From Natrinema amylolyticum (GTDB taxonomy: Archaea > Halobacteriota > Halobacteria > Halobacteriales > Natrialbaceae): DNA of 64,000 nucleotides. Positions 30,564 to 34,495 of the stretch are shown piece after piece. A program made the position numbers and the translations under genes. Position 1 is the stretch's first letter. The number at the start of each line of letters is the position of its first letter. The notes beneath the pieces are model-generated. The model saw only the letters and a list, made by a program, of their open reading frames with translations. It had not been told where the DNA came from and made no database searches. Location: NCBI RefSeq assembly GCF_020515625.1, contig NZ_JAIWPJ010000002.1:62001-126000 (forward strand), given 5' to 3'.

Positions 30564-30691
30564 TGTGGGACGGTGGGCCGGACTCGTTAAATCAGCACCG
30601 ACACGGGCATCGACGACCGGCGTCTCCGCCGGTCCGGATAGTCCGATCGGTCCGAATACGGGTTTTTGCGCGCTCGAGCCGTAGGGATCGC

Positions 30692-30922
30692 ATGCGCATT
30701 CGGATCCAGTACTACGACCTGGTCCTCATCGGGATCCTGTGTAGTTTGCTCCTGGGCGTCACTGTCGGCCGTCCCGCGCGAGCGATCGTCACCCGCGCCG
30801 ACGATTACGACGCGGTCGTGATGGGGAGTCACGGCGGTGATATGATCGGTCGGTTATTCGTCGGCGACGTCGCCAGGACCGTGTTCGAGCGCTCGCCCGT
30901 TCCGGTGACCGTCGTCCGCTGA
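30692..30922 (+). CDS. chimeric gene: small membrane protein head fused to UspA tail
   Basis: A 76-residue frame. Residues 1-27 (MRIRIQYYDLVLIGILCSLL...) look like the start of a small haloarchaeal membrane protein with one helix. From about residue 27 on (GRPARAIVTRADDYDAVVMG ... VFERSPVPVTVVR) it is the C-terminal third of a universal stress protein, including the GSHGG and final VPVTVV elements but without the N-terminal strands or the full nucleotide site. The simplest reading is an in-frame fusion created by a deletion between two neighbouring genes. Whether it is expressed or functional is unknown. Confidence 0.6.
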   Translation: MRIRIQYYDLVLIGILCSLLLGVTVGRPARAIVTRADDYDAVVMGSHGGDMIGRLFVGDVARTVFERSPVPVTVVR

Positions 30923-32573: not shown

Positions 32574-34001
32574 TTAGCGACGTCGGCCGCGGTGAACGAT
32601 CGCCACGTCGGCCTCGAGATCGCTGAGTTTCCGGAACGTCGGCGGGGAGACGAACCGCGAGGCGGCCGACCGATCGGTGCTCGAGCCCACGAAACAGACG
32701 TCGTACCGGGGGGCGGCCCGACTGAGATAGGATTCGACCGAGGCGGTGGCGACGTGCGTCTCGAAGCGCCCCGAGAACGCGTCGACGAGATCGGCGAGCG
32801 TGCTCTCGGCCGATCGCCGTCGCGATTCGCTGTCGATACAGGTACAGACGCCGACCGTGCGCCCGGCCTCGGTCACCCGGATCGCGAAGTCGAGCATCGC
32901 GCGAGCGGTGTCGCCGGCACCGCGGACCGCCACGAGGCTGTCCCGCCACCGCCGTCGCGGAGCGCCGTTCGAACGGAACGCGATCACGTCGATCTCGCTG
33001 TCGAACAGCCCGGTGATGAACGACGAGAGCCCGCCGCGCTCGCGTTCGGCGTACGGCGTGACGATGAGATCGCAGTTCTGCTGGCGCGCGGTCTGGAGGG
33101 TGAGGCCGGCCGAGAGTCCACTGTCGGCCGCGACCACGACCTCGCAGGGAACGTCGTACGCCGTCTCGAGATCGGCCGCGAGCGACTCGAGGCGGCGAGC
33201 GGCGTCGCTGGCCGCGCGTTCGGTGGGGTCCGTCGCCGTCTCCTCGTCGCTCTCGGCGGACTCCTCGTGGGTCTGCTCGGCCTCGTCCTCGTCGACGACG
33301 TCGAAGAGGACTACCTTCCCGGCCTCGTGGGCACCGGCGATCGACGCGGCGAAGCGGGCGACCGTCTCCTCGCCGTCGCCCATCGGAACGAGCACGTGAT
33401 CGTCCCCGCTCGTCGTCCCGTAGAGATACCGCGCACGTTTCTCGTAGAAGCGATCCCGCCAGAGGACGAACGCGCTCGCGACGAACGCGCTCGAGACGAC
33501 GATGCCCAGGACGTAGGCCAGTTGCGCGTTCCCGGTGACGAGCACGAGCAGGGCGGTGGAGAACGCCGTCGGTACCTCGAGGTCGAGCGCCCAGGTGCAG
33601 ACGCCGGTGAAGAAGACGGCGAGGGCGGCCCCGGACGCGCTGGCTCCGCCGCCGTCCAGGCCGATCGCGGCCGCGAGCGCGAACGCGAGCCACCCGCAAC
33701 ACGCCCCGGCGGTCATCCCGCCGACGAACTTCCACGGCGTGGCGTACTTGCCCTCCGGATCGGCGAACAGCGTGTACGTTCCGGACGCGAGCGGCGGGAA
33801 CAGCAGGAACGAGATCGCCGCCGTCATATTCGCCAGCCACGTCACCGCGGCGATCAACAGGGGGACGAAGACGAGCACCGAGACGTGCAGGAGGTTCCCC
33901 GTGTGCTCGAGCCATCGGACGAACGCGTCGAGTTCGCGTCGCTCCAGCCGACGGAGTCGCCTTGCGAGTGCGCGAAAGTGTGCGCGCACCTGCTCGAGCA
34001 T
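32574..34001 (-). CDS. HPP-family membrane protein fused to USP domains
   Basis: A 475-residue protein. Residues ~30-170 contain four to five helices in an HPP-type arrangement (FPPLASGTYTLFADPEGKYA, then PWKFVGGMTAGACCGWLAFA). The rest carries two USP-like alpha/beta domains: the first begins VLVPMGDGEETVARFAASI, the second SLVAVRGAGDTARAMLDFAI and ends VAIVHRGRRR. A low-complexity acidic stretch (DEDEAEQTHEESAESDEETA) interrupts the first. HPP proteins include nitrite transporters in plastids and cyanobacteria; the USP part is presumably a nucleotide-sensing regulator. The start at 34001 avoids a Ser/Arg-rich upstream frame of 111 codons. Confidence 0.82.
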   Translation of the reverse strand: MLEQVRAHFRALARRLRRLERRELDAFVRWLEHTGNLLHVSVLVFVPLLIAAVTWLANMTAAISFLLFPPLASGTYTLFADPEGKYATPWKFVGGMTAGACCGWLAFALAAAIGLDGGGASASGAALAVFFTGVCTWALDLEVPTAFSTALLVLVTGNAQLAYVLGIVVSSAFVASAFVLWRDRFYEKRARYLYGTTSGDDHVLVPMGDGEETVARFAASIAGAHEAGKVVLFDVVDEDEAEQTHEESAESDEETATDPTERAASDAARRLESLAADLETAYDVPCEVVVAADSGLSAGLTLQTARQQNCDLIVTPYAERERGGLSSFITGLFDSEIDVIAFRSNGAPRRRWRDSLVAVRGAGDTARAMLDFAIRVTEAGRTVGVCTCIDSESRRRSAESTLADLVDAFSGRFETHVATASVESYLSRAAPRYDVCFVGSSTDRSAASRFVSPPTFRKLSDLEADVAIVHRGRRR

Positions 34002-34102
34002 GGGGTTTCGTTGTTCCCGGAGCGACCAAAACTGTTCGGCTTCGCTCGAGAGGAATAGCCGAAGGCGTCGGCACGTACGTGTGCGGGTCGAGCACAACTC
34101 GA

Positions 34103-34318
34103 CTATTGACTCCGTCTCCAGTCCTCCGGTAGACGCCGCCAGAGTGGCATAAATATACCATAGAACGACCCTACGACGACGATGACTGCTATTACAGCTA
34201 ACTCTGCGCCTGTCATTTGTAGAACATCGAAAGCGAAACGGAGGACAACGAGGACTCCGAGTCCCCAGATGGCAAGGGCTACCCGGTGCTTCAGGGACAG
34301 ACCCGATTCCGGAAACAT
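34103..34318 (-). CDS. 71-residue two-helix membrane protein
   Basis: A small protein: basic N-terminus (MFPESGLSLKHR), two hydrophobic helices (about residues 12-32 and 36-54) and a basic tail (LWRRLPEDWRRSQ). Codon use fits the neighbours. An AAATTTAGG TATA-like element on the reverse strand (34345-34355) lies ~32 bases upstream. It precedes the HPP-USP gene on the same strand (101-base gap). I do not recognise the family. Confidence 0.65.
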   Translation of the reverse strand: MFPESGLSLKHRVALAIWGLGVLVVLRFAFDVLQMTGAELAVIAVIVVVGSFYGIFMPLWRRLPEDWRRSQ

Positions 34319-34495
34319 ATATTGATACGCTCACTCCACGACCCTAAATTTTGGCGAGATAGTACTGGTGTTTCATAACGCCCCTCAGGCGTATCCGTTC
34401 AAAATGCGTTTCGCTCGGTCTAATGGCTGCACTTATCGTTGGATCCCGATCGAACCGTGCGGACGGGTTCTGATCACTGACACCGTGCAGTCCGG

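Follow-up and report, generated by a model that had tools for sequence, protein, structure and literature searches.

An in-frame chimera of a membrane-protein gene and a universal stress protein gene, probably a young remnant of a decaying haloarchaeal gene pair

The ATP site of universal stress proteins (USPs) is marked by the motif G-2x-G-9x-G-S/T, as given in the available text of two sources (PMC3673472, PMC10791855), and the usual (type 1) USP dimer interface is described in the available part of the first as being formed by strand 5 and helix 4 (PMC3673472). USP domains linked to transporters occur frequently in haloarchaea, according to the accessible text on the subject (PMC12159084; also PMC5992828). 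One composite family of two domains, MnhE-USP, is presented in the accessible text as broadly conserved in Haloarchaea (PMC5992828).

The window analysed here, a stretch of 64,000 nucleotides from Natrinema amylolyticum, contains a short open reading frame (ORF) in which the start of a small membrane protein runs directly into the end of a USP. The ORF is probably a young, non-functional gene remnant of a recurrently decaying gene pair, a reading to which we assign a probability of about 0.83. Among the titles listed by literature searches on haloarchaeal USPs, gene fusion and gene loss, none describes this locus. A membrane-tethered USP of the ordinary type, with TM_HPP and Usp domains, is encoded near the fusion (window 32574-34334, minus strand).

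The fusion and its two parents

The ORF lies on the plus strand at 30692-30922, running for 76 codons (76 aa) from an ATG at 30692 to a stop at 30920-30922. A longer reading of 119 aa is possible from an upstream in-frame TTG; the ATG is taken as the start of the fusion because it aligns with the starts of intact smp genes, smp being a label coined here for a 75-aa haloarchaeal membrane protein with two predicted helices. Residues 23-76 match the Pfam family Usp (PF00582) with E 8.8e-12 and 46.2 bits (cut-off 24), the alignment covering profile positions 86-141 of 141. Residues 1-26 are 65% identical to the N-terminus of a separate 75-aa smp in another genome (G006, locus L021; E 5.6e-8 in the small set of loci searched).

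Since the tail matches PF00582 and the head separately matches smp, the chimera is real. Judged from its sequence, the ORF is the start of smp (codons 1-22) joined to the end of a USP gene (codons 23-76), and the two separate matches bear out a preliminary description of the locus that had proposed an in-frame join of a membrane-protein head to a UspA tail. The head was thought there to span about 27 residues. Its membrane-protein origin stands and its length does not: the smp-derived codons end at about 22, and codons ~22-26 are common to both parents, without a sharp boundary at residue 27. The tail, described as the C-terminal third of a USP, is indeed C-terminal and slightly larger than a third, comprising the last 54 of 139 residues (39%). 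The features of the locus are collected in Table 1.

Table 1. Positions of the fusion, its parts and the flanking genes in the window.
Feature	Position	Strand	Basis
T-run promoter-like element GGGTTTTTGC, from smp	30660..30669	+	T-run at about -29 to -25 from the ATG
smp head, codons 1-22: start and most of the first predicted membrane helix	30692..30757	+	Identity to L021, codon comparison, hydropathy
Seam: 12-nt direct repeat, assigned site of the deletion	30757..30768	+	11/12 nt, smp against usp (G015 as proxy)
usp tail: last 54 USP codons and stop	30758..30922	+	PF00582 match, 89% identity to the tail of the intact usp of G015
Left anchor: TrkA_C-like membrane protein, 424 aa	29289..30563	-	TrkA_C below the Pfam cut-off; in 29/29 genomes of the genus
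Right anchor: potassium-channel protein with TrkA_N, 395 aa	31007..32194	+	Ion_trans_2 and TrkA_N; in 29/29 genomes of the genus

Hydropathy gives intact smp two hydrophobic windows; its end is acidic, and it matches no Pfam or NCBIfam family at cut-off. The fusion contains its N-terminal motif IQYYDLVL and its first helix, and the second helix and acidic C-terminus are absent. The best 17-residue hydropathy window of the fusion (2.60; residues 10-26) is also the sole such window found in it.

Full-length homologues in many genomes, which the preliminary description had named as evidence against a fusion, did not appear. Among the matches listed from searches of 61 and of 392 genomes, only the window's own genome gave a match over residues 1-76; these matches reached about E 2e-10 and 5e-16, respectively, so that a full-length relative of very low similarity might have escaped notice. 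A further search likewise gave no cross-seam match among 13 loci taken from the matches listed. A genuine small protein family with the 76-aa protein as an ordinary member was accordingly rejected as an explanation: the two halves belong to separate, unfused families, no match across the seam occurs among the matches listed or the 13 loci, and the chance that such a family exists is close to nil.

The seam and the deletion

The nearest relative with an intact usp, G015, serves as a proxy for the parental genes; in a tree of the anchor genes it represents a sister lineage of the window's genome, G000 (75% support). Measured against this proxy, the fusion lacks 486 bp, a length divisible by three. 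Its seam coincides with the direct repeat between smp and usp of G015 that ranks first among 86,265 pairs of 12-mers, with agreement at 11 of 12 nt. For G006 and G022, which are less closely related, the corresponding positions match at only 8 of 12 nt and rank in the best 0.9% of pairs. Both copies of the repeat encode V-A-I/V-G in the same codon phase, and the join is therefore in frame without any selection for an open frame. In G000, the seam reads GTC ACT GTC GGC, with ACT at codon 24 where the G015 parents have GCC and GCG. Since ACT occurs in neither parent, at least one change has taken place at the seam between the lineages of G000 and G015.

Upstream of smp, the T-run listed in Table 1 is found also in G015 and G022, and in nearly the same form in G006 and in a remnant in G025. 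It is presumably a promoter, given the usual position of the TATA-like box and the layout of leaderless genes in haloarchaea. A second element, TTTATC, precedes the usp start in G015, G006, G022, G001 and G013 (TTTATT in G027) and is among the sequence lost in the deletion. It is presumably the usp promoter, to judge by the same typical arrangement.

These comparisons point to an ancestor in which smp (75 aa, two predicted helices) stood beside usp (139 aa), between the TrkA_C-like and channel genes. As the comparison shows, a deletion of ~490 bp took out all of smp beyond its head, together with the spacer, the promoter-like element of usp and the first 85 usp codons, and the repeat suggests that this took place by slippage or recombination between short in-phase direct repeats. 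The frame survived by an accident of sequence, the two V-A-I/V-G repeats happening to share a phase. Transcription, if any, would proceed from the inherited smp promoter, and the product, a single membrane helix ahead of a partial USP (strands 4 and 5; helices 3 and 4), would be expected to misfold and be degraded. A deletion between adjacent genes was also the origin favoured in the preliminary description; it gains support from G006 and G022, where the unfused pair occurs in the same order and slot, and from G015, where usp is accompanied by a start-less smp.

The location of the seam at a short repeat, together with the presence of the fusion in a single genome among the matches listed, could be taken to indicate an assembly or sequencing artefact, with reads collapsed at the repeat and the deletion absent from the organism. 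This is extremely unlikely, as ordinary assembly would not be misled by an imperfect repeat of only 12 nt. Moreover, codon 24 matches neither parent proxy, the ORF contains E62R and other private changes, and neighbouring species carry other, independent deletions at the same slot.

Repeated loss of the pair and its possible source

The slot, defined as the gap between the TrkA_C-like and potassium-channel genes, was compared in 29 genomes of the genus, which we take to be Natrinema. Both genes are intact in two of them (G006 and G022), each with a 75-codon smp followed by a 139-codon usp. Seven others have an open usp without an intact smp (G001, G004, G010, G013, G015, G023 and G027); the usp of G023 is four residues short, and in G015 an intact usp stands beside an smp of full length without start codon and YYD motif. 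In total usp is open end to end in 9/29 genomes. It is damaged in five, through the fusion in G000, frameshifts in G003, loss of the start in G011, loss of the N-terminus in G017 and reduction to about the last 25 codons in G025, and no usp ORF occurs in the slot of the remaining 15. Besides these damaged copies, DNA-level scraps were found in colinear places among the 19 slots searched, as smp pieces in G009 and G028 and usp pieces in G016 and G019. Single matches of 11-12 nt in G014 and G018 are within chance, because a reversed control also gave one (weak) match.

Mapped on the tree of the two anchor genes, the losses of an open usp number 11 with the midpoint root and 11-15 over rootings, and at least 9 after grouping and the collapse of nodes below 80%; all these counts assume the smp-usp pair at the root, and transfer back into some species would lower them. 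The deep nodes of the tree are weak (36-47%), and the count is therefore given as a range. From these genome comparisons, the smp-usp slot is decaying across the genus, with repeated and independent losses, and the genus does without the pair in most species. The fusion would be one of many independent routes by which the pair has been lost. Between a new function and a junk fusion, both of which the preliminary description had entertained, the repeated loss at this slot favours the latter.

Two further loci in the genus deserve mention. In G025 (L053, ~1207-1500), a parallel deletion has joined the smp upstream element to about the last 25 usp codons; this remnant has no start codon, and its usp stop is changed to CGA. 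In the potassium-channel gene of G008 (L058), codon 44 of the aligned part is TGA, and the gene may be broken or mis-sequenced.

The state of smp in the slot bears on the idea that only the head of the fusion matters, its single membrane helix still working with the USP tail as passive ballast. The head does retain its ATG and IQYYDLVL motif, along with the element upstream of it. Yet the second predicted helix and the acidic tail of intact smp have both gone, and smp is missing or broken in the slot in 27 of the 29 genomes, though a paralogue of 43-44% identity is present elsewhere in the window's genome. We hold this explanation to be very improbable.

Beyond the genus, 38 of the 62 family genomes with a left-neighbour match were examined. 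None has usp in the slot and one has smp (G074), followed there by a phosphate permease (PHO4); in 34 of the 38 the channel gene lies within ~2 kb of the left neighbour. Outside the genus, on this comparison, the slot is almost always empty. Relatives of smp are present in 250 of 392 genomes of the order (E 0.001 or better). The PHO4 permease adjoins a USP gene, in both orientations, in 23 of the 30 best permease loci (L179-L208; 293 genomes searched), an adjacency which suggests that permease and USP are functionally linked. In G042, from another family, a usp that follows a permease tail is 73% identical to the intact usp of G006. We infer that the likely source of the pair was an smp-permease-usp cluster that lost its permease.

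At the same G042 locus (L164, 3341-3625, minus strand), the first ~34 smp codons are joined, out of frame, to the C-terminal portion of the PHO4 permease. The window's genome has two tandem phosphate permeases, ~48% alike, at L181 (G000:C3:125574 and upstream), and no smp or usp was found within that locus.

Fold, selection and relation to known systems

The fusion keeps strands 4 and 5 and helices 3 and 4 of the USP fold. Strands 1, 2 and most of 3, and helices 1 and 2, are lost with the N-terminal 85 residues, as is the N-terminal Asp. In the AlphaFold model of intact usp, the five strands occupy residues 4-8, 30-37, 82-88, 104-108 and 135-138, and the fusion starts at parent residue 86. That model, built from a similarly shallow alignment, reached a pLDDT of 75.6 with all five strands, against a mean of 41 and no confident fold for the fusion, which was folded with an alignment of USP tails only, its smp-derived head having no aligned relatives. 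A complete five-stranded USP domain takes ~140 residues, and the tail has 54. The ATP-site motif is likewise incomplete: GSHG is followed, nine residues on, by G-D and not G-S/T, and the N-terminal Asp (parent D10) is deleted. The deviation at the end of the motif is shared with the parents, which have G-D or G-N there.

Between G000 and G015, the dN/dS of the tail is 0.20, compared with 0.16-0.41 for pairs of intact copies (one at 0.69), 0.14 for the channel gene and 0.15 for the TrkA_C-like gene. Four replacement and four silent changes were placed on the G000 branch, and three and six, respectively, on the G015 branch. With only eight changes on the G000 branch, a share of 4/8 replacements does not fall significantly short of the neutral share of 73% (P 0.14). 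The single codon of E62R (GAA to AGG) accounts for two of these four replacements; it lies in helix 4 at a position where the other complete tails compared have D or E. The counts fit a young deletion as well as (weak) constraint, and eight changes cannot separate the two. No further decay has affected the fusion ORF, which retains its start, its frame, its stop and the promoter-like element; the smp of its near relative G015 has lost both start and YYD.

This integrity, with a start, a promoter-like element and a preserved frame, and the tail dN/dS of 0.20 are what might be expected of a functional membrane-anchored USP fragment, in which the smp helix would hold at the membrane the piece formed by helix 4 and strand 5, and this piece would pair there with other USPs of the cell or with the neighbouring channel and alter their regulation. 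The part retained corresponds to the usual USP dimer interface in the available text of PMC3673472, and at least 19 other USP-tail matches in the same genome offer possible partners. Joins of USPs to transporters are frequent in haloarchaea as far as the accessible text of PMC12159084 and PMC5992828 describes them, and an HPP-USP protein is encoded nearby. Nevertheless, we regard such a function as improbable. The deletion took away strands 1 and 2, most of strand 3 and the N-terminal portion of the ATP site, no confident fold is predicted, and the membrane USPs described in the available portions of the literature have a whole USP domain. The gene pair has also been lost again and again in the genus, and E62R falls within helix 4, part of the dimer interface. 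A specific version is decidedly improbable: a one-helix anchor with the dimerisation edge of a USP, expressed from the smp promoter in place of the usp promoter, would capture other USPs of the cell at the membrane beside the potassium channel and act as a dominant-negative or tethering subunit. Should the fragment be produced and bind other USPs, this would be a rare instance of a single deletion creating a new membrane-bound regulator.

As a young remnant, the fusion would offer a snapshot of an in-frame chimeric ORF born as a by-product of gene loss. The finding is a modest one, in which the parents, the repeat and the sister states of decay are all visible within one genus. It also cautions that a short fusion ORF may be a young remnant even when it has a start, a promoter-like element and a low dN/dS.

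Among known proteins, the USPs of PF00582 (MJ0577, 1mjh; AF1760, 3loq; TeaD, 3hgm) resemble the tail of the fusion in the G-S-H-G stretch, helix 4 and strand 5, whereas the fusion is without the N-terminal 85 residues and has G-D at the last motif position. With the 75-aa haloarchaeal membrane protein smp it shares the first 22 codons and the upstream T-run, but not the second predicted helix and the acidic tail. A deletion that joins neighbouring genes, as in the fusion, is described for ppe38-71 of Mycobacterium tuberculosis in the available part of PMC7671302; according to the same text, one chimera of that type was detected as protein, whereas the present fusion is a protein predicted from sequence (PMC7671302). 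Haloarchaeal composite genes, including MnhE-USP, also join a membrane part to a USP part (PMC5992828). In contrast to the fusion, which is a fragment seen in a single genome, these composites carry domains and are common to several genomes, as the accessible text describes them (PMC5992828).
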